IMG/VR virus record: IMGVR_UViG_3300032322_002141
Coordinates: 1-29,470 of that record
Source: a virus
DNA: 29,470 bases
Direction: 5' to 3' (one strand)
The position numbers and the translations under genes were made by a program. The notes under the pieces were generated by a model, which saw nothing but the letters and a program-made list of their open reading frames with translations, searched no databases and had not been told where the DNA came from. This document shows, piece after piece, positions 12,106 to 24,587 of the stretch. How positions within the stretch are numbered: the first letter of the stretch is position 1; each line of letters starts with the position of its first letter.

Positions 12106-15100
12106 TTAACGCCTGCCACTGGAGAGGATTCCGCCAGGACGCAATTCACTGACCAGCACCTGTTTAACGGCGCCTTCAATTTTACGCCCCAGTTCGGAGC
12201 CATTGCTGTTGCCATTGCCTTGCATCTGCCCATTATTAATGTTAACAACAATATTACTGGTCACTTCTCCTCCCACGCCGCCAGCCACGCCTCCGAGGTC
12301 CACAGGGATGCTCTTGCCGTCGGGGAGGGGGACAATAGCCTCGTTGTAACGACCTTCGCCTACAAGGCCCATAGTAGGGCCCGTGACCATGCCTCCGTTG
12401 GCGAATGCTCGGAAGCCTCCAGTGGCAATGCCCCCATCGGCAAATTGCAGATTGGTGTTGAATGCTGCTCCCCATCCTGCTGCGCTGGTATCTATGGCGG
12501 AAGAAGTGCCTGCACTAAAACCACTGCTAAGGCCTCCACCAATGCCTCCTGCAACAGCGCCCAGTCCAGGCAGGGCAGCGTTAAAGATAGACTGGAATCC
12601 TTTAAGTAATTGAGCCTTTAACCACTCCGCAATCATTTGCGCCACCATGTCAGCAAAGGAATCGGCGATGCTTTGGAACAATCCAGCAAGAGCTTCTCGC
12701 ACGGAAGATGTTCCAGTGATGATTCCCTTAAAAGCTTCGCCAAAAGCATTGCCGATCGTAGAGGCAATGCTTTGAAGATCTTCCTTGGCCTTTTGAGCAG
12801 CGTTTACCTGCTCTTGTAACAATGCTTGTTCTTCTACGGCAGCAGGACTAAGGAATGGATTTTCTTGGCGAATTTTTTCGCGCAATTCAAGGCCAGGATC
12901 AAGAGTTTGCGCAAGGGTTAGCTGGCCACGCAATCCTCGCAACATTTGCTCTCTCTTGACTTCATTATTCAAGGCAATTTGCTTTTCAATTACTCCTTTT
13001 AACAGAGCAATTTTGCCTTCCATTAATAAAAGCTCGTCTTTACTTATATCCCTTGTCAGTCCTAAAACCTGCAAATAAGCCTGTTGGTCTGGAGTCAATT
13101 CCCCAATGCCATCCTTCAAGTTAGCAAGCAGCATTTCTTGCTCAATAATTGATGAATTAGCGGTGTCAATGGCACTATTAAAGGGTCCTTCTAGTTCCTT
13201 TCTCGCGCCTTCCACGGCAACATTATATTTATCTTGTGCAATGGCAAGGTTATTGGTATAAATAATTTGAAGATCGGCCAGTTTTAATTGCTTATCTTGA
13301 GCCGAAAGGTTATCTCTATTGGTAGCCATGGTGGCCAGGCGTAATTTCTCTGCCTCTTCTAACTTGGCAGTATCCAGTGCAAGCGCTGCTGAATCAATTT
13401 TATACCTTGTCTCTGAGATAATATTTTGCTGCCTTCTCCTGTCGAGAGCAAGTTGCTCTTGCTCTGCTTGTTGCTGAATAAAGTCGAGCTTGCTTCTGTC
13501 GTATGTATCCAGTTTTGCTCCCTTGTCACTGCCAGTCCCCGTAACACTTGTTGTTGCAGTAACAGAAGCACGTTGTCTTTCTGCCTCGGTTTGATATTTA
13601 TTTGGATTTAAATTAAGAACTTCTTCCGCGTTCCTAATTTTTAACTCTAATTCTGTTATTTTTGCTTTGGTATTTTCTTGTGTAAAGCCACCAAGTATAT
13701 TACTAAGGCCACCAACTGCTGTTTGACTTAAAGCCTGTCCACCTTTTGTTTGGGTGGCTTTTAATGTCGCTAACTGGCCGCGTAATCCTGCTACATACTC
13801 CTGCTGGGCTCGTTGATCAGCCTGAACCTTCTCTTTCGTGGCTCCAGTATATCTTCTTTCTGCCGTCTCAATAGGCCTAGGTCCAGCGGGACCTACAGGA
13901 TTTTTTTCTCCACGCAATTTAGCAATCCTGGCTTCAGTTTCAGCAAGCTGCATTAAACCGCTAATTGCAATCGTTACTGCGATGGCAATAGTGCCAATTC
14001 CTGCAAGTCTTAATAAAGATCCAAGCAAAGTGGTTACAGGTCCAACTGCTCCAGCCGCACCACGCTGAAGCAGTAGCATTTGCAACTGAGTACCTGCAAT
14101 ACTTGTACCAGCCCTAGTAGTTGCTACTCCCAGTGCGTTCATTGTCACGCTAAGCGCGACGATGCGGGCAATAGCTGCATTAATACTTGCAATCGCCCCC
14201 AGGAGGACTCTACCACCAAGCAAGGTAAAGGCAGTGTTGACTAACAGTACATTTGTATAAACTTTTAACAAGAAACCGACAATTGGATTGCCAGCAAGTG
14301 TTGTTAAAAATTTTGCGACATTAAGCAAGAGGCCGCCAAAAAGTTGGAACGATGGGATTAAAGCTTGAATATTTGTAACTATGCCTTCAAAGGCAGGCTT
14401 GAGTTCGTTTAATTGCTTGGCGAGAGCACTGCCGCCTGTTGTTTGTGCGGCCTGTCCAGTAAAGAAGGCATTGAATCCATCCGTCACCTGCTTAATGCCG
14501 CTGGTCAATGGCATCACGACAGCATTCAAGAAGCCAACGGCAGCAGGCTCAAATGCTTCGTACAGGGACAGCAGGGAATTTTGCATTCTGTTTATTACGC
14601 CCTGGAAGGTACGCGCTGCCCCCTCTGCACCTGGGCCAAATTCTTGATTCATTACAATGCCAACATTTGTCAGCAATTGCTTCATCGCTTGTCCCTTATA
14701 GGCTCCATCCTCTAGGGCTTCAGAGAATTTCTGAATTGCGTCAGGTCCTTTAAAGCCTGCCGCTTCCGCAAAAATGCCAAGGGCACCTGGGAGAACGTCT
14801 CCCAACTGTCCCTTCAGTTCTTCGGACATTACCTGTCCTTTGCTCGCCATTTGAGCAAATGCATAATTAACGCGATCAACTTTATCGGCACTCATGCCAA
14901 AAGTTGCTGCAGCCTTACTGATGCCCGTGAAAATATCGCGCACTTCGTCGCCACCAAAACCAGCCGATTGCATTGATGCATACAGCTTCGTGAAGCCATC
15001 CCGTGCCGACTGAAGAGGAATATTGTATTTGTCAACTAATTGAAGAATTAAATCATTAGATGCCTGTACTTCTTTAGCACTAGGACTAATAGCCTTTAAG

Positions 15101-16692
15101 GTGTTATTGAAAGATTGCAGCGCTGCAACTGCCTGCCCCACTTGAGCGGGGAAGTTAGTGGCGAACGCCAGCGCCTTATATGCCGTGCCAAACAACAGCA
15201 CTTGCTTAGTGGCAAATGCAAATTCTTGGCCAATTTCACGAACCAATCCAGCACCAGGCAGATTGGGCGTGTTAAAGCCTCCTCCTCCTCCTCCGCGCCT
15301 TGCAAAATTGCCAGGCCCTCCGCCAGTGCCGCCTCCTGGTGGCATGCCACCAGGCCCGCTGTAGACCATTGCTCCACCAGGAGCATAGGGGACAATTGCG
15401 CTCTGTGGGCGGGCTCCGCGATATGCATAGCTATAGGAAGATGGAGGCCTACCAGCCACCCCTCCTTCGCCCATCACATCAACGCCTCTCAGCGCTGAAC
15501 GCATGCGAGCTTCACGCTCTCGCCTTGCAAACAACTCTGCTCTAGTTTCACCATCTCGACCAAGACGACCAGTTCCATATGGATTAGAAACACGTCCCAC
15601 TCCAGGAGCCAAGAATCCTGCAACTCTTGAACCAGTAAGTGCTGGTCTTAATGCATTACCCAGATCCCTTACATTTACAGAGCGAATGGCTTCATTTAAG
15701 CCTTGGCGAATTGTGTCTACAAAGGCGTTGGCGGCCTCTCGCGCCGCATTTTTAAGCGATGGGTCAAGAATGTCCCCCATCAATAGTTTTTGTGATCCAA
15801 TGGCCGTACCAGGAAGGCCAGGAGGCGTATAACCTGGTGGCAGCATTCTGCCAGTGGATGAAGGACCAGCGCCTACGCCACGCGATGGAGTAGTGGCCTG
15901 CCAATCAAACGGGGAAAGAGCTTTCATCCCGCGAACTTGTTGGCTGATTTGAGAGGCACTCATGCCCCCCATCATCAATGCCATGCGAGCCAGACGATCC
16001 AGCATTCGCTGCATTTGGCGTGTAGCAGATTGCTCTGCTATTTCCATCGCCCTTAATAATCCTTGCTCAAAGCCCTTGCCTGCGTCATCGCCAATTTTTT
16101 TAAACTCTTTCGATGGACTGGCAATTCCCAGGACATCCTTGAAAGACTTAATTAAACTTTTTCCTAAAGTTTGAGCCGCCTGCTGCAGTCTTGGGTCGCC
16201 ACTTTCTAGCCCGTCAAGCAATCCCTTAATTGAATCCCTTCCAATGGTGCCCAAAGCGGCAACCATCTGTGCCCTAGTTTTTCCTAGGGTTTTTTCGTCT
16301 AACAGTCCCCCTTGAATTGATGCATTAAAAAGCGTTTTAATTTCAGCAGCAGAAAAGCCTCCTTTCCCTGCAGTTTGACTTAAGCCTTTAGTGCCTAATG
16401 GAAGGCTTCCTTTTACCTTGCCACTAGCCTGTTGCACTCTTTGCAGTGCCAGTACAAGCCTGTCTGCGGCTTTGATTTCCGCTTCCAGGTTTGTATTAAT
16501 TTTTATATTGAAAGTTTTATTATTGACGTATCTATTTAAAGTCTGAATTTCTTTATTTAAACTTGCCCTGTCAAATTTAACTCTTAAAGGCGCGTTGAAT
16601 TCACTGCTTGCGACTGCGCTGAGCTGGCGAAGTTGCTGCCGAAAAAATCCCAAATCCAGGGATACATTTAGCCTCAGCTCAGGCGCGGCCAT
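12106..16692 (-). CDS. H: Tape measure protein
   Basis: At 1528 residues this is the largest gene. Residues about 490-690 hold the tape-measure domain (FATNFPAQVGQAVAALQSFN, LVDKYNIPLQSARDGFTKLY, FGMSADKVDRVNYAFAQMAS, EELKGQLGDVLPGALGIFAE). Before it lies a Pro/Gly-rich linker (about 380-480) with a run of six glycines. Hydrophobic, membrane-like segments occur near 800-860 and 890-915, and a long helical Gln/Lys/Glu-rich region spans about 1080-1320. The C terminus has GPTMGLVGEGRYNEAIVPL, typical of the family. It sets tail length and is probably involved in genome delivery. At about 0.15 nm per residue, the tail would be roughly 230 nm long (inference). Confidence 0.96.
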   Translation of the reverse strand: MAAPELRLNVSLDLGFFRQQLRQLSAVASSEFNAPLRVKFDRASLNKEIQTLNRYVNNKTFNIKINTNLEAEIKAADRLVLALQRVQQASGKVKGSLPLGTKGLSQTAGKGGFSAAEIKTLFNASIQGGLLDEKTLGKTRAQMVAALGTIGRDSIKGLLDGLESGDPRLQQAAQTLGKSLIKSFKDVLGIASPSKEFKKIGDDAGKGFEQGLLRAMEIAEQSATRQMQRMLDRLARMALMMGGMSASQISQQVRGMKALSPFDWQATTPSRGVGAGPSSTGRMLPPGYTPPGLPGTAIGSQKLLMGDILDPSLKNAAREAANAFVDTIRQGLNEAIRSVNVRDLGNALRPALTGSRVAGFLAPGVGRVSNPYGTGRLGRDGETRAELFARREREARMRSALRGVDVMGEGGVAGRPPSSYSYAYRGARPQSAIVPYAPGGAMVYSGPGGMPPGGGTGGGPGNFARRGGGGGGFNTPNLPGAGLVREIGQEFAFATKQVLLFGTAYKALAFATNFPAQVGQAVAALQSFNNTLKAISPSAKEVQASNDLILQLVDKYNIPLQSARDGFTKLYASMQSAGFGGDEVRDIFTGISKAAATFGMSADKVDRVNYAFAQMASKGQVMSEELKGQLGDVLPGALGIFAEAAGFKGPDAIQKFSEALEDGAYKGQAMKQLLTNVGIVMNQEFGPGAEGAARTFQGVINRMQNSLLSLYEAFEPAAVGFLNAVVMPLTSGIKQVTDGFNAFFTGQAAQTTGGSALAKQLNELKPAFEGIVTNIQALIPSFQLFGGLLLNVAKFLTTLAGNPIVGFLLKVYTNVLLVNTAFTLLGGRVLLGAIASINAAIARIVALSVTMNALGVATTRAGTSIAGTQLQMLLLQRGAAGAVGPVTTLLGSLLRLAGIGTIAIAVTIAISGLMQLAETEARIAKLRGEKNPVGPAGPRPIETAERRYTGATKEKVQADQRAQQEYVAGLRGQLATLKATQTKGGQALSQTAVGGLSNILGGFTQENTKAKITELELKIRNAEEVLNLNPNKYQTEAERQRASVTATTSVTGTGSDKGAKLDTYDRSKLDFIQQQAEQEQLALDRRRQQNIISETRYKIDSAALALDTAKLEEAEKLRLATMATNRDNLSAQDKQLKLADLQIIYTNNLAIAQDKYNVAVEGARKELEGPFNSAIDTANSSIIEQEMLLANLKDGIGELTPDQQAYLQVLGLTRDISKDELLLMEGKIALLKGVIEKQIALNNEVKREQMLRGLRGQLTLAQTLDPGLELREKIRQENPFLSPAAVEEQALLQEQVNAAQKAKEDLQSIASTIGNAFGEAFKGIITGTSSVREALAGLFQSIADSFADMVAQMIAEWLKAQLLKGFQSIFNAALPGLGAVAGGIGGGLSSGFSAGTSSAIDTSAAGWGAAFNTNLQFADGGIATGGFRAFANGGMVTGPTMGLVGEGRYNEAIVPLPDGKSIPVDLGGVAGGVGGEVTSNIVVNINNGQMQGNGNSNGSELGRKIEGAVKQVLVSELRPGGILSSGRR

Positions 16693-16726: not shown

Positions 16727-17703
16727 TTAATCATTGCTTACTTCACGCGAAGAAGCGGTCTTTAACTCATCTGCAAGCAAGGCAATAACCCTTCCGTCCA
16801 TTCTTGTTGTACGCATTAATTTTTGCAACACTGCCAAGCTTTCGTCCGAAAGACCATTTTCTTTTTTAATCTTTTTCGTATCAAAGGGCAAGAAATCATT
16901 AACAGAGGTTTTGGCCTTCTTGCCAGCTAATGCCCCAACTACCACTGTGCCAAGTTTTGCAGTGGAAATGCTATTGATGTTGTACTTGGCAATGTCATGT
17001 TTTTCTAGCCACTTCAATGCGGTAGTGACATCCTTCACTCGCTGCTTGCCAAAATTATGAGATTGCCATCGCTCATCTCTTAAGTCAGATGCATTGAGAC
17101 GAAAGTAAATTTCGTCCCACTTCGTCAGAGTTTTTAAAAATTGTCGAGCTTGTTTTTCTACTCGCTCGGCAACGCTTCCTTCGTTCGGCGTGGCGCTTTT
17201 TTTGCTTGCCCTGCCTCTTTAGCCTCCGCCTCTTGCTCGCTCACGATAAACTCCATGCCCTTGGCAATAGTTCGTCGCCCCATGGCCTTGGTGTCTTCAA
17301 TGGACCAGTCATCAAGGGACAACCAGTCTCCGCCAATCAGTCCTTCACCGCGACAGCGAATAAAGACAGTAACCATGCGAGCATTGCCATTCTCTACATT
17401 GCCACCACTGTTGATCATGCCAAGCGTTTCTTCAGTGAAATCACTTAGCAACTCCATTTCAGTAATGTCAGCGCCACCCTGAAGCAGTGCAAATGCTTCA
17501 TCCAGAGGAATATCTTTGGCCGTGGCAATGCGCTTGGCAAGCTGCACTGCACGAATGGTTGCCTGGCTTTGAGCTTTACTCAGTTCTTCCTGCTCAATAC
17601 CCTCAGCGACCAACCACCCGCCATGCTTGCGAAGACGCACCTTGGGAGTGAGTTCAAAATACTCAGGCTCTTCGCTTTGCAGGAGAAAACTATACTTGCT
17701 CAT
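16727..17703 (-). CDS. Tail assembly chaperone fusion GT by -1 frameshift
   Basis: The product is about 325 residues: 169 codons of G up to the slippery run at 17203-17197, then 156 codons in the -1 frame. The -1 frame is open from the slippery site (next codons read SATPNEGSVAERVEKQ) through LTKWDEIYFRLNASD and KQRVKDVTTALKWLE to FLPFDTKKIKKENGLSDESL and MRTTRMDGRVIALLADEL. In lambda, G and GT are made in a fixed ratio by the same mechanism and chaperone the tape measure protein; this pair lies immediately upstream of the tape measure gene. A GTG at 17038 could start the T part alone but would cut off 53 coding codons upstream, so the fusion is preferred. Confidence 0.85.
17158..17703 (-). 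CDS. Tail assembly chaperone G
   Basis: This is the unshifted product (181 residues from ATG 17703; a TTG two codons earlier is less likely). It opens MSKYSFLLQSEEPEYFELTP and contains ATIRAVQLAKRIATAKDIPL, ADITEMELLSDF and a charged Ala/Lys/Glu-rich tail leading to the slippery site. Position before the tape measure gene and after the tail tube and completion genes, together with the frameshifted partner, identifies it as a G-type chaperone; the sequence itself is divergent. Its ATG lies inside the end of the upstream gene, whose frame it overlaps by 14 bases. Confidence 0.8.
   Translation of the reverse strand: MSKYSFLLQSEEPEYFELTPKVRLRKHGGWLVAEGIEQEELSKAQSQATIRAVQLAKRIATAKDIPLDEAFALLQGGADITEMELLSDFTEETLGMINSGGNVENGNARMVTVFIRCRGEGLIGGDWLSLDDWSIEDTKAMGRRTIAKGMEFIVSEQEAEAKEAGQAKKAPRRTKEALPSE
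17194..17205 (-). promoter_or_regulatory. -1 ribosomal frameshift site between G and T
   Basis: On the minus strand the zero frame reads GCA AAA AAA GCG, so A-AAA-AAA (17203-17197) is a slippery heptamer of the X-XXY-YYZ type. Slipping back one base gives AGC as the next codon and an open frame of 156 codons ending at 16727. Only a weak downstream hairpin (AACG with CGTT around a 7-base loop) is visible. Tail chaperone frameshifting upstream of the tape measure gene is a general rule in long-tailed phages. Confidence 0.85.
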
Positions 17704-17929
17704 GATCAAGAACGTTCAGAATGGCATTGAATACCTTCACCCTTTCACTCTGAGAGCGAAATTCCTTAGGCACTTCAACTAAAAAAGAGTGGTCTTCGCT
17801 TGAAATTCTAATGGTATCTTCTGGAAATGCCATAAGGCAAAGGATGCCAGCTTCAATGCTCGCGCCCTCATAAAGACAATTAATGGCATGTACTCTGCCG
17901 TCCGCACTCCGAAGATAATCAAGATGCAT
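17690..17929 (-). CDS. Small tail-module protein, unknown
   Basis: This 79-residue protein (MHLDYLRSADGRVHAINCLY...) has no motif I recognise. It overlaps the end of the upstream completion-like gene by 11 bases and the start of G by 14 bases, so translation is probably coupled. A gene in this slot between tail completion and tail chaperone genes is likely to belong to tail assembly, but that is only from position. It contains two cysteines (INCLY, ILCLM) and is slightly acidic. Confidence 0.6.
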   Translation of the reverse strand: MHLDYLRSADGRVHAINCLYEGASIEAGILCLMAFPEDTIRISSEDHSFLVEVPKEFRSQSERVKVFNAILNVLDHEQV

Positions 17930-20608: not shown

Positions 20609-21523
20609 TCAGGACGAAGCCTGAACGTAAATCATGCTCTTGGGATAGTACAGAGCCACACCACCCACGCGAGCGTGAGCAGGGACAATGAACTCAAGAC
20701 CACGCTGTTGGGGCGGGAACAGTTCCAGCGGCTGAGGAATGTGCAGTTGCACTTTCTCAGGGTCACGCTTATACACCACCATGCGGCTGGTGAACAGACG
20801 GCCACCGTTCTTACCCTTGGTCAGTTGGTTGATGGGCTCAACGTTACGGATGTAGGGGTTGGTGCGCAGGAAATACTCAAGCACAGTCACGTCCGACGAA
20901 TCGGAGTTACGAGTGGTGCTGATCTTGTTGTAATCCTCGTAAGCCAGCAGGATGGTGTCGGGCTGCTCCTTCATTTGCGAAGCGTTGATGATGGCGCTAA
21001 CGCCATAGTTCAGCAGCTCCAGCATTTCTTGAGCAGTGATGCTGGCGGTGGTGAACCACTTGTCAGCAGCAACAATGTCAACAGTCGAGTTGTTGAAGAA
21101 GCCAGAAAGACCAACGGTGGATTCACCGAACATGGCCACGGATTCAACTTTCTCTTCGTAAGCGCGACGCACGGCAGCGGCACGGCGTTGCTCAAGAGCA
21201 ACGTTGGCCATTTGAGCAGCACGAAGCTCTTGCACGGTGTAGCCGAAGCTGCCGCCGAAGGAGCGAATGTTGATGCTCTTCTCCACCTGGCTAACGTCAG
21301 CGCGGGGCAGATCATCAGCAGCGTCCGCAATCAGCTTGAACTCCCCAGTGGAGTCCATGATGCGGTAGGTGTAGGTTTGTGCGCCAGGACCAGCTTCGCT
21401 GGTGACAGGCAGAATGGTGGGGTATTTGATGTCAGCGTACTGAACTTCAAACACTTGCGGGCGAATGTACTCAAGCTGGCGCTCAAGAAACAGGCCCGCA
21501 TCGTCCATGCGAAAATCAGACAT
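20609..21523 (-). CDS. Major capsid protein, DUF2184-like (HK97 fold)
   Basis: This 304-residue protein resembles DUF2184/encapsulin-like major capsid proteins: FLERQLEYIRPQVFEVQYAD near the start, TYTYRIMDSTGEFKLIADAA, a core helix ALEQRRAAAVRRAYEEKVES, FNNSTVDIVA, and C-terminal LELFPPQQRGLEFIVPAHAR VGGVALYYPKSM. It forms the icosahedral shell. The gene is visibly richer in G and C at third positions than the flanking tail genes and has the best ribosome site in the window, as expected for the most abundant virion protein. It follows the protease/scaffold and cement-like genes. Confidence 0.9.
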   Translation of the reverse strand: MSDFRMDDAGLFLERQLEYIRPQVFEVQYADIKYPTILPVTSEAGPGAQTYTYRIMDSTGEFKLIADAADDLPRADVSQVEKSINIRSFGGSFGYTVQELRAAQMANVALEQRRAAAVRRAYEEKVESVAMFGESTVGLSGFFNNSTVDIVAADKWFTTASITAQEMLELLNYGVSAIINASQMKEQPDTILLAYEDYNKISTTRNSDSSDVTVLEYFLRTNPYIRNVEPINQLTKGKNGGRLFTSRMVVYKRDPEKVQLHIPQPLELFPPQQRGLEFIVPAHARVGGVALYYPKSMIYVQASS

Positions 21524-21538: not shown

Positions 21539-22099
21539 TCAAGAATCAGCGGAGAGAGTGAAGCTCGGGCCGTTCAGTTCCAGGATCGCCAGGCCAGAAC
21601 CAGTGGTGGAACTGAGGAAGCGAGCGTTGGAGAGACGGACGGTCTTGCCAGAGGCAAAAGCATGGCTGAATTGACCAGCTTTGCCAGTGCCACTTGCGCT
21701 ATACAGCACACGCACAGGCGATGCGGGGTTGACGGCGCCAGTGACGTAGACAGCCACTGCACCTTCGTTAGCCACGTTCATCACTTGGTCGATTTTCACG
21801 CCAGGACGGTTGTCACCGTTCAGAGCGGTTTCATCAACATAGGTGAGCACGTTGACGCCGAGAACGGTGCCAGTAGCGCCAGAAATAGTGGTGGCAGAGT
21901 TTGCAACAGTGCCAGCCAGGTTATACACCTGCAGATCACCGAAGGGCTGCACAACGGCAGTTTCGTTGATGAAGGTGCCAATCGTGTTGTCGCGGATGTC
22001 AGAGAGTTGTCCTTCCAGCAGGGCGGTTTGGGCGAGAGCATAGCTCTGTTGCACACCACCAGCAGAGGGAGTCCCCGACGCGGAAAAAGTTACGGCCAT
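21539..22099 (-). CDS. Head decoration/cement-like protein
   Basis: This 186-residue protein is rich in Gly, Ala, Ser, Thr and Val with beta-type alternation (YALAQTALLEGQLSDIRDNT, then LTYVDETALNGDNRPGVKID, and VAVYVTGAVNPASPVRVLYS). It lies between the protease/scaffold gene and the major capsid gene, a slot used by cement or decoration proteins in many phages. AAGGAG nine bases before its ATG is a good ribosome site embedded in the end of the protease gene. The family is not certain; an alternative is a minor head protein. Confidence 0.6.
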   Translation of the reverse strand: MAVTFSASGTPSAGGVQQSYALAQTALLEGQLSDIRDNTIGTFINETAVVQPFGDLQVYNLAGTVANSATTISGATGTVLGVNVLTYVDETALNGDNRPGVKIDQVMNVANEGAVAVYVTGAVNPASPVRVLYSASGTGKAGQFSHAFASGKTVRLSNARFLSSTTGSGLAILELNGPSFTLSADS

Positions 22100-22102
22100 G
22101 GA

Positions 22103-22720
22103 TCAGCGCTCCTTAGAGACGGAGAGGGGGGATTTCCAAGCATTCTGCAGCTTGTCCATGTAGGACGAAGGAGCAGACATGGGGGAAGCGATGGAAGCAA
22201 CGGCTTTACGCAGTTCTTCCGTGGCAGCAGAATCGCTACGAGGAGCGGATTCGGCCAGGGTGTCAAACATGGCGGTCACGTAATCATCGGAACGCTCCGA
22301 CAGATCAGCATCGCCACGCACGGCTTTGATGGAAGCTTCCATGATTTCACGAGCAGAAAGGCCCGCGAAGTCAAAGGCAGAATCAAGCGAAGTACGAGCC
22401 TTGTCGATCAGCGCAATGCGCTCTTCAACCAGGCCGTCAATGTTCACTTGTTGGGCGGCACCAAGGTCAACCTTGAGGCTTTCCACTTCCTCAGCAAGAG
22501 CATCAGCGCGACCCTCAGCAGAATCACACTTGCCTTGCATTTGCTTTTCCATGGCGTCCATTTCGGCCTTCATGGAATCGGCGGCGGCTTGCAGCTCGTC
22601 GCACTTTTTCTTCATGTCCTCATAGGACATTTTGGCGTCTTCCCGTTCTTTGGTGATCGCCAGAGCTACGCTCTCGGTCACCTCAAACTCAGCGCCATCA
22701 AAATTGACTTTTGCAGTCAT
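22103..22720 (-). CDS. Nested scaffold protein from an internal start
   Basis: An in-frame ATG at 22720 (residue 193 of the protease) is preceded by GAGGA with a 7-base spacer (22732-22728). It begins exactly where the protease domain ends and the coiled coil follows (MTAKVNFDGAEFEVTES). The product would be 205 residues. This is the arrangement of lambda C/Nu3, where scaffold is made from an internal start in the same frame. The alternative is that only the fused protein is made and is cut in two. Confidence 0.6.
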   Translation of the reverse strand: MTAKVNFDGAEFEVTESVALAITKEREDAKMSYEDMKKKCDELQAAADSMKAEMDAMEKQMQGKCDSAEGRADALAEEVESLKVDLGAAQQVNIDGLVEERIALIDKARTSLDSAFDFAGLSAREIMEASIKAVRGDADLSERSDDYVTAMFDTLAESAPRSDSAATEELRKAVASIASPMSAPSSYMDKLQNAWKSPLSVSKER

Positions 22721-23296
22721 AGATGGTTCCTCAATGGGAGAAAATAGAGAAGGATCGGCAGCATCCAGACGATCTAGATGAAGCTTCACTTGCGGGCCAG
22801 CGCGGCCCCTGCGAACGACAGCAATGTGATTTCCGCTGATCCCCGTTTGGATGCCATCGTAATTCTCACCACCATCAGTTACACCAGGAACCGCCTCATA
22901 GTTGACGCGGTAACCAGCGCTGACCTCCTTCGCATCACCACGCATAATACGCTCAATGGCATCTTTATCGGTGATGGTCATGACGGCACGGACAAAACCG
23001 TTGTCATACACCACCTCAGTGCCACTAAAGCCCACTTGATAGTCCTTTGTATTGGCGCTATCTAATAGGACTGGAGGATGCTCAAGAGTGATTGCTTTGC
23101 CCGCAAATGAGGCCAAGCTTTCAGGAGACGCCACTTCGTTTTCAGGACGATATTCGCGCCTAATGGAGCCATCCGCATCGGTGTACTGTTGCACACCAGT
23201 GCGAGCGATGGTCGCCCAAGCACGAAGATAACCCTCAGGGGTCATCTCGTACTTTTCAATTGGCGCTACATCGTAACGAAAACATGTGTCGCTCAT
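22103..23296 (-). CDS. Prohead protease (DUF2213) fused to scaffold
   Basis: Residues 15-175 match the DUF2213 family of capsid maturation proteases: MTPEGYLRAWATIARTGVQQ, REYRPENEVASPESLASFAG, ITLEHPPVLL, KEVSAGYRVNYEAVPG, YDGIQTGISGNHIAVVRRGR AGPQVKLHLD. His and Ser in LEHP and EVSAGY are candidate catalytic residues. From about residue 193 the sequence turns into a Glu/Lys/Met/Ala-rich coiled coil (EDMKKKCDELQAAADSMKAE), the expected scaffold, with a C-terminal tail ending SPLSVSKER. Total length is 397 residues. It cuts the scaffold and capsid N termini during head maturation. A nested start for scaffold alone is given separately. Confidence 0.88.
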   Translation of the reverse strand: MSDTCFRYDVAPIEKYEMTPEGYLRAWATIARTGVQQYTDADGSIRREYRPENEVASPESLASFAGKAITLEHPPVLLDSANTKDYQVGFSGTEVVYDNGFVRAVMTITDKDAIERIMRGDAKEVSAGYRVNYEAVPGVTDGGENYDGIQTGISGNHIAVVRRGRAGPQVKLHLDRLDAADPSLFSPIEEPSMTAKVNFDGAEFEVTESVALAITKEREDAKMSYEDMKKKCDELQAAADSMKAEMDAMEKQMQGKCDSAEGRADALAEEVESLKVDLGAAQQVNIDGLVEERIALIDKARTSLDSAFDFAGLSAREIMEASIKAVRGDADLSERSDDYVTAMFDTLAESAPRSDSAATEELRKAVASIASPMSAPSSYMDKLQNAWKSPLSVSKER

Positions 23297-23357: not shown

Positions 23358-23654
23358 ATGCAGCACATTCAGCATCGTCGCCTCACCACTCGTCTCAGTG
23401 CGCCAATTGTCACGATTCAAGAAAGTAGGCAAATTATTGGCGAAAGAATGAAGGAGGCTAGGTTAAATTGTGGTATGTCGCAAGCAGACATTGCAGAAAT
23501 ACTGCATTGCGATCAAACTACTATTTCTCGGATGGAACGTGGGCAAATTTCCCCTGACTGCGCCCAAATTCGTATTCTTAGTTCTATTTTTCAGCTTTCT
23601 ATCTTGTACCTCCTCGGTTATCCTACGTTTGTGGTTTCCGCAGTAAAAAATTAG
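23358..23654 (+). CDS. XRE-family helix-turn-helix regulator
   Basis: This is the only accepted plus-strand gene. Its 98 residues contain the classic HTH at about 27-80: IIGERMKEARLNCGMSQADI, then AEILHCDQTTISRMERGQIS. This is a Cro/CI-type DNA-binding domain without an oligomerisation or cleavage domain. The first 25 residues are an unusual basic extension. No ribosome site precedes the ATG; an internal ATG at Met31 is another option but would cut into the first helix of the domain. The stop overlaps the stop of the convergent minus-strand gene by a few bases. It could repress the head operon it faces or itself. Confidence 0.85.
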   Translation: MQHIQHRRLTTRLSAPIVTIQESRQIIGERMKEARLNCGMSQADIAEILHCDQTTISRMERGQISPDCAQIRILSSIFQLSILYLLGYPTFVVSAVKN

Positions 23655-23959
23655 TCGTCGCCCTCGTCGTCTTGAATAGACCGAATGGTTTCTTCAAGAT
23701 TTTCCATAATGTAGGCCTTTGCCATTGCCTCTGCTTCAAAAGTTAAAAACTTAGTGGGTTCGAAGTGCTCGTCAGGCTTCTCGTAATAATTTTTCACGAA
23801 AATATGCGTTTCGTCTAGGCGGCCATTCTTGAAATGCTGCTCTTCAACGAGACGCCAATGGGACGTATTGCGATGTTCGTTTGCCGAAAGAATGGCAAGC
23901 GCTTTCATCACGCCAATGCCATCTTCTTCTTCTTCAATTACCCGGACGTATTCGCTCAC
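23651..23959 (-). CDS. Acidic protein of unknown function
   Basis: This 102-residue protein has a GTG start overlapping the stop of the -1 frame upstream (GTGA). It is strongly acidic at both ends (RVIEEEEDGIG and IRSIQDDEGDD) with a central part HWRLVEEQHFKNGRLDETHI FVKNYY. I recognise no family. It is convergent with the XRE gene, overlapping by four bases at the stops, and is probably co-transcribed with the frameshift protein upstream of it. Confidence 0.6.
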   Translation of the reverse strand: MSEYVRVIEEEEDGIGVMKALAILSANEHRNTSHWRLVEEQHFKNGRLDETHIFVKNYYEKPDEHFEPTKFLTFEAEAMAKAYIMENLEETIRSIQDDEGDD

Positions 23960-24587
23960 TGTTTTGATTGGCGACTTTCCACCATCTTAATGATCCGATT
24001 CGCCCACGCCCTTCCCGCATCCCCTCCCCATAGTTGCCAAGCAATGTAGCCCGCATCGTCTTCGCCACCACCTTTATTCTTTTCATGGCGAGAGAAAAAT
24101 GCAGCCATCCGCTTGATCGTGGCAAAACTGATGCCGCCATCGCCAGCCAGATCACCAGCTCGTGCCACGCCGCTGCCAATGCCCTGCTTGCCAGCTTCCT
24201 GCGTCGTCAGGCCGCCTTTGCCGTGCTTCTTTCGTAGTTCTAAGCCACGACGCGCTGCGGCCCGTACAGACGATGGAGGGGAGAATGATTCAGCGTCTCC
24301 CCTTAGCGCTTTTTTCCGCAGGAGCCATCCATCTCCTCTTCTTCAGGCTCTTCCATTTCCATGCAGCACATGGCATCAATGTAGGCGTCGATATAAGCAT
24401 CGCTTTTGCCTTTCATTGACATGCCAGCTTCGGACAGGGCAATGGCAATAGCCTGCTTCCTATTGGTTACAGGCTTTTTATCGCTGCCTTTAAGAGTGCC
24501 AGCCTTGAACTCCCGCATCACTTTGGCAATTTTTGCCTGCTTTGCTTTTTGGCTTTTAGGCGCTGCCGCGTCACTGCGATCTTCCAT
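23956..24587 (-). CDS. DUF6496-like protein extended by a predicted -1 frameshift
   Basis: Predicted 210-residue product: 93 residues of the DUF6496-like frame, then 117 residues in the -1 frame after the heptamer at 24315-24309. The -1 part reads ALRGDAESFSPPSSVRAAAR, RGLELRKKHGKGGLTTQEAG, then SGVARAGDLAGDGGISFATI KRMAAFFSRHEKNKGGGEDD and AGYIAWQLWGGDAGRAWANR. This matches, from memory, a conserved phage domain (SPP..VR.AA, RM..FFARHE.NK, IAW.LWGGDAGRAWA). The domain starts right after the slip point, and there is no ATG, GTG or TTG in this frame between the heptamer and GTG 24168, which is already inside the domain. It lies between the sugar cassette and the acidic gene. Its job is unknown. 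Confidence 0.75.
24277..24317 (-). promoter_or_regulatory. Predicted -1 frameshift signal: slippery heptamer, spacer and stem-loop
   Basis: Zero frame on the minus strand reads GGA AAA AAG CGC TAA. A-AAA-AAG (24315-24309) is the dnaX-type slippery heptamer. After a 5-base spacer (CGCTA, which contains most of the TAA stop) an 8-bp stem AGGGGAGA (24303-24296) pairs perfectly with TCTCCCCT (24284-24277) around an 11-base loop. Distance and geometry fit known -1 stimulators. The stem is GC-rich and lies inside the -1 coding frame. Confidence 0.78.
24303..24587 (-). CDS. DUF6496-like small protein, unshifted product
   Basis: This is the 94-residue zero-frame product ending two codons after the slippery site. 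AKIAKVMREFKAGTLKGSDK and VTNRKQAIAIALSEAGMSMK match the DUF6496 family (basic, small, function unknown, common in phages). The C-terminal part is acidic and Met-rich (YIDAYIDAMCCMEMEEPEEE), forming a flexible link to the -1 domain. ATG at 24587 is the first in the frame. Confidence 0.75.
   Translation of the reverse strand: MEDRSDAAAPKSQKAKQAKIAKVMREFKAGTLKGSDKKPVTNRKQAIAIALSEAGMSMKGKSDAYIDAYIDAMCCMEMEEPEEEEMDGSCGKKR

Follow-up and report, generated by a model that had tools for sequence, protein, structure and literature searches.

The 3′ end of a phage gene for a DUF6496 protein carries what appears to be a conserved programmed −1 ribosomal frameshift signal, through which the protein would be extended by a second, helical domain; judging from the comparison of related sequences, we put the probability that this is a real recoding signal at about 0.93. 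Such a frameshift fusing the two domains had been proposed in the initial annotation, and comparison of relatives strongly supports that reading. A zero-frame X_XXY_YYZ heptamer is conserved, a stable 3′ structure lies behind a 5-nt spacer and displays compensatory changes, and the −1 frame is conserved as protein without a start of its own. Slippage itself presumably takes place at this site, with an efficiency that we would guess to be several to tens of percent.

Layout of the putative frameshift site

The window, meaning the whole 29,470-base viral record analyzed here, resembles Synechococcus phage S-CBS4 in gene content, and the whole frameshift feature lies on its minus strand. The zero-frame DUF6496 gene (24303–24587, minus strand), which would give a short product of 94 aa, ends in GGA AAA AAG CGC TAA, so that the slippery heptamer A_AAA_AAG (24309–24315) is separated by one sense codon (CGC) from the TAA stop (24303–24305). 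The spacer CGCTA (5 nt, 24304–24308) leads to a putative stimulatory stem-loop of 8 bp with an 11-nt loop (24277–24303), in which the 5′ arm AGGGGAGA occupies 24303–24296, the loop 24295–24285 and the 3′ arm TCTCCCCT 24284–24277; the first stem base is the last A of the stop codon. The −1 frame (23956–24309, minus strand) reads GCG CTA AGG GGA GAC and stays open for 117 codons up to a TGA at 23958–23956, encoding AL followed by a 115-aa helical phrog_2859-type domain, and the earliest ATG, GTG or TTG within it is a GTG at codon 48. The initial annotation had described the signal and the open −1 frame without stating the strand; its heptamer, 5-base spacer, 8-bp stem and 11-base loop are exact to the base, and its 117-codon frame with a first start at codon 48 was reproduced. 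Among the 31 window genes checked, A_AAA_AAG occurs in frame at the DUF6496 site only.

With this layout, a fraction of the ribosomes translating the DUF6496 gene would be held where the 8-bp stem begins, with A_AAA_AAG occupying the P and A sites, and a backward slip of one base would let both tRNAs re-pair (AAA_AAA). Slipped ribosomes would read on as ALRGDAES for 117 codons, yielding a fusion of DUF6496 and the second domain of about 210 aa, and unslipped ribosomes would read one more codon and stop, releasing the 94-aa protein.

Conservation of the heptamer among relatives

Protein-based searching of viral contigs gave 410 stretches encoding relatives of the second domain, of which 80 were kept, and a second search of viral contigs used the DUF6496 protein as query; nearly all relatives are metagenomic contigs. 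Among the distinct junctions from these protein searches, 81 have a zero-frame heptamer (66 AAAAAAG, 13 GGGAAAG and 2 CCCAAAG), a count that includes L039, L102 and L116, which carry the heptamer and were classed as frameshift junctions. In every frameshift junction the heptamer stands exactly 12 nt before the stem begins.

A DNA-pattern scan, combined with the loci from the earlier searches, raised the collection to at least 122 junctions with the second domain; its pattern prescribed some codons and portions of the stem and left the heptamer free, and the scan is unbiased only for the heptamer, the stop and the N positions. Among the matches listed, 121 of 122 junctions possess an in-frame X_XXY_YYZ heptamer at the identical place (92 AAAAAAG, 25 GGGAAAG and 4 CCCAAAG), the single one without it (L271) being an in-frame fusion. 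In 111 of these 122 listed matches a single codon separates the zero-frame stop from the heptamer, and in 8 the stop follows directly. Every non-fused junction examined has the heptamer, all three types keep AAAG in the A site, and on a maximum-likelihood tree of the second domain, with the stem left out, the heptamer state changed at least 22 times. Related phages keeping heptamer and stem, which the initial annotation had proposed to look for, are thus plentiful (121 junctions among the matches listed, isolate S-CBS4 included). In L129 (3255–3296) and L085 (3255–3296) the stop beside the heptamer is lost, and the zero frame ends within or past the stem. The linker before the slip site occurs in several unlike forms (an acidic run ending SCGKKR, GEKRCKAYL...KKK and a short GKD), each of which still ends in a heptamer.

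The same signal is present in an isolate, Synechococcus phage S-CBS4, as AGAAAAAAGGGCTAAGGGGCGA...TCGCCCC, the junction there reading CGC AGA AAA AAG GGC TAA and then GGGGCGA...TCGCCCC. GenBank lists two separate hypothetical genes for S-CBS4, the second of which (gp019) begins at an internal GTG and, as annotated, lacks the initial 12 conserved residues of that part.

Compensatory changes in the stem

When synonymous codons were drawn at random from window usage with the amino acids fixed, 8 of 8 pairs formed in 1.4% of draws and 7 of 8 in 8%. The stem is far above this synonymous expectation, the 81 frameshift relatives having 8 of 8 pairs in 63 cases and 7 of 8 in 18. Mean folding ΔG was −14.3 kcal/mol for frameshift junctions versus −4.2 kcal/mol for in-frame fusions. 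The stem opens with an arginine codon, for which 80 of 81 frameshift junctions use AGG and 10 of 11 fusions use CGN.

Compensatory changes, a further check suggested in the initial annotation, were found. At the sixth stem pair (alignment columns 18–34), A-U occurs in 30 distinct sequences, C-G in 18 and U-G in 6, a change that couples a silent glycine-codon position with position 1 of a Ser/Ala codon; on the domain tree built without the stem, 11 independent row pairs agree with covariation and none opposes it (p ~0.001). L116 adds one double change, A-U for G-C. Over the whole stem, standard pairs fill 97.4% of cells, a value reached in none of 500 shuffles, and slid versions give 59–71%. 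A pseudoknot between the loop and downstream sequence was sought and was not above synonymous controls, and an upstream Shine-Dalgarno stimulator, likewise sought, was slightly stronger than the control and had no fixed place.

In-frame fusions and interchange of states

Homologues that run in one frame across both parts, which the initial annotation had also proposed to look for, comprise 11 distinct junctions and L271. The 11 junctions lack the heptamer and mostly have a weaker stem, some being still able to form 7 or 8 stem pairs. On supported branches of the maximum-likelihood domain tree, the frameshift and fused states interchanged at least four times, indicating that the short product is dispensable or made otherwise in some phages; to judge from these sequences, the short product or a fixed ratio is not indispensable in every relative. 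Relatives in which the two parts are separate genes with their own start and no slippery site, the arrangement that the initial annotation had named as contrary to its reading, were looked for, and none was seen among the relatives examined. A run of seven A does exist in L018 (2989–3030), where both parts are in one frame and the stem is still present, but this is one of more than 100 contigs; that copy may be natural or an error.

The two proteins and their gene neighborhood

The first ORF matches Pfam DUF6496 (PF20106) with an E-value of 3e-9 and a score of 37.5 bits, above the gathering cut-off of 24, and belongs to that family. Its product has a helical N-terminal part and an acidic tail ending in GKKR-stop, and AlphaFold2 predicts three helices. 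The second domain belongs to phrog_2859 (E 7.5e-15) and is mostly helical in an AlphaFold2 model of a natural in-frame fusion (mean pLDDT 79, with a low-confidence linker); this mostly helical model has no beta-sandwich fold and no Ig match of the kind expected for an Ig-like extension. Among solved structures in the PDB, no convincing relative was found for the fusion or for DUF6496, and among predicted viral proteins the structural matches include prohead proteases, XkdF and portal proteins.

The second domain also occurs within head proteins of other viruses. It occupies residues 12–108 of the S-CBS1 protease-capsid polyprotein and, in Roseobacter phage CRP-406, lies at the N-terminus of the capsid protein gene; it is also found within proteins annotated as head protease in other viruses and within a portal/Mu gpF-like protein of another; in Vibrio and Limnohabitans phages it appears to stand ahead of a putative XkdF-type region. 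Prophage copies in bacterial genomes number seven, all distant relatives.

Gene order around the pair is near-invariant in the frameshift group, DUF6496 and the second domain being followed by a 102-aa gene, a DUF2213 protease, a cement protein and the major capsid protein. In the window, all on the minus strand, the 102-aa gene lies at 23651–23959 (directly downstream in 159 of 160 frameshift loci), the DUF2213 head maturation protease at 22103–23296 (downstream in 130 of the 130 frameshift loci long enough to tell), the capsid cement protein at 21539–22099 (113 of 113 frameshift loci) and the major capsid protein at 20609–21523 (40 of 41). A helix-turn-helix repressor gene (23358–23654, plus strand) lies within this head operon on the opposite strand, flanked by the 102-aa gene and the protease gene, and S-CBS4 gp021 occupies the same place.

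The start of the 102-aa gene lies on the −1 stop with an overlap of 4 nt (23959–23956, ATGA or GTGA), an arrangement present in about 100 of 122 junctions among the matches listed. A Shine-Dalgarno sequence almost never precedes this gene (3%), and several other genes of this phage also lack one. Translation of the 102-aa gene is probably coupled to frameshifted ribosomes, and slipped ribosomes would then be the main ones to translate it.

Alternative explanations

Could the break have arisen in the A run through faulty sequencing or assembly, with the true gene in one frame? We consider the chance of this practically negligible. The in-frame L018 with its seven A speaks for it, as do other relatives that are genuinely in frame, but the break recurs in 121 junctions (among the matches listed) from many assemblies and in S-CBS4, an isolate whose signal excludes assembly error as a general explanation; the stem, moreover, covaries. 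In addition, 29 of the 121 listed junctions have GGGAAAG or CCCAAAG and no long homopolymer, which is evidence both against sequencing error and against transcriptional slippage, whereby RNA polymerase would slip on the A run and place an extra A in some mRNAs without any ribosome shifting. Six A in the window and up to eight in some relatives would offer the polymerase a suitable run, but the GGGAAAG and CCCAAAG sites, which replace A6 within the same tree, contain only three to five identical bases in a row, and the strict codon register together with a stem at a fixed 5-nt distance points to the ribosome, making slippage of the polymerase very improbable. Expression of the second domain as a separate gene, by reinitiation after the TAA or from a non-standard start, with AGGGGAG as a Shine-Dalgarno sequence masked by the hairpin, we rate as exceedingly improbable. 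Although AAGGGGAG looks like a Shine-Dalgarno sequence, and S-CBS4 gp019 is annotated in GenBank as separate from its internal GTG, there is no ATG, GTG or TTG at a conserved place of the −1 frame; the first one varies among relatives and in most of them would remove the conserved RGDAESFSPP. Starts at differing places that mostly cut the invariant RGDAESF do not fit a separate start, which would also leave the heptamer and the in-frame fusions unexplained.

A frameshift that is real but whose product ratio plays no role, because a fused gene fell out of frame and was kept going by the slip site, is unlikely in our view, yet deserves far more weight than the explanations above. The switching between frameshift and in-frame fusion, at least four times on supported branches, would suit it, and an analogous view has been proposed for Ig-like extensions (PMC5009743). 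Most of the group, however, keeps the two-part signal and a stop one codon on, across much divergence and exchanged linkers, and does so even though a single-base length change would make the signal unnecessary. The short-to-long ratio may be functionally important, as the initial annotation suggested by analogy with G and GT.

Relation to known systems and implications

The proposed mechanism is a canonical −1 frameshift, in a gene pair for which none is described in the literature searched. That search covered open-access literature and returned no paper on DUF6496 or its frameshift, which is weak evidence of novelty. In the virion assembly operon of lambda, −1 slippage shortly before the first ORF ends yields a short and a long protein, gpG and gpGT (PMC5009743). 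The DUF6496 pair would likewise be a short and a long product of −1 slippage, but it consists of other proteins, has a strong hairpin and lies not beside the tape measure gene but upstream of the protease and capsid genes. The lambda slip site is GGGAAAG, which is one of the variants at the DUF6496 site. The tape measure gene of the window (12106–16692) has a candidate G/GT site of its own, a −1 site A_AAA_AAA at 17203–17197 (minus strand) toward the 3′ end of a 183-aa ORF (17158–17709), whose −1 frame is open into an ORF (16727–17218; phrog_337 tail protein, a weak match) just before the tape measure gene.

The A_AAA_AAG of bacterial dnaX is followed by a simple stem-loop (PMC5009743), as at the DUF6496 site; in E. 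coli, however, −1 slippage gives the shorter of the two products, and the DUF6496 site has no fixed Shine-Dalgarno stimulator. Frameshifting in the head module, with a C-terminally extended product, is found in gene 10 of T7/T3, in Lactobacillus phage A2 and in Listeria phages PSA and A118 (PMC5009743). The present case shares the head module and the C-terminal extension, but those systems extend the major capsid protein, often with an Ig-like domain, whereas here two small non-capsid proteins ahead of the protease are concerned and the extension is helical. The −1 domain is homologous to the phrog_2859-type domain of the S-CBS1/S-CBS3 and Roseobacter CRP capsid polyproteins, XkdF, prohead proteases and portal/MuF proteins, in all of which, unlike here, it is part of one continuous gene.

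Synteny with head genes, and a domain built into the head proteins of other viruses, make a role in prohead assembly the likeliest for both products, by association. The pair is a plausible head-side analogue of lambda G/GT: DUF6496 would serve as its common element and the domain added by frameshifting as an adaptor in lower copy, like G/GT on the tail side. Tentatively, and at somewhat less than even odds, we suggest that the slip sets the proportion of a DUF6496 prohead component to an extended form that docks on the protease, portal or capsid and, via the overlap, determines how much product the next gene yields.

For a common cyanophage group whose records now list the two parts as separate genes, these results call for a corrected annotation, as genome records currently miss the short and the fused product that one RNA would give. 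They would add a well-conserved frameshift to those of tailed phages, on the head side of the genome, and the relatives that alternate between the frameshift and the fused arrangement would constitute a natural experiment on the value of a fixed short-to-long ratio. With three interchangeable slip sites before one stem in a homologous setting, heptamer preference could be tested on cyanobacterial ribosomes.
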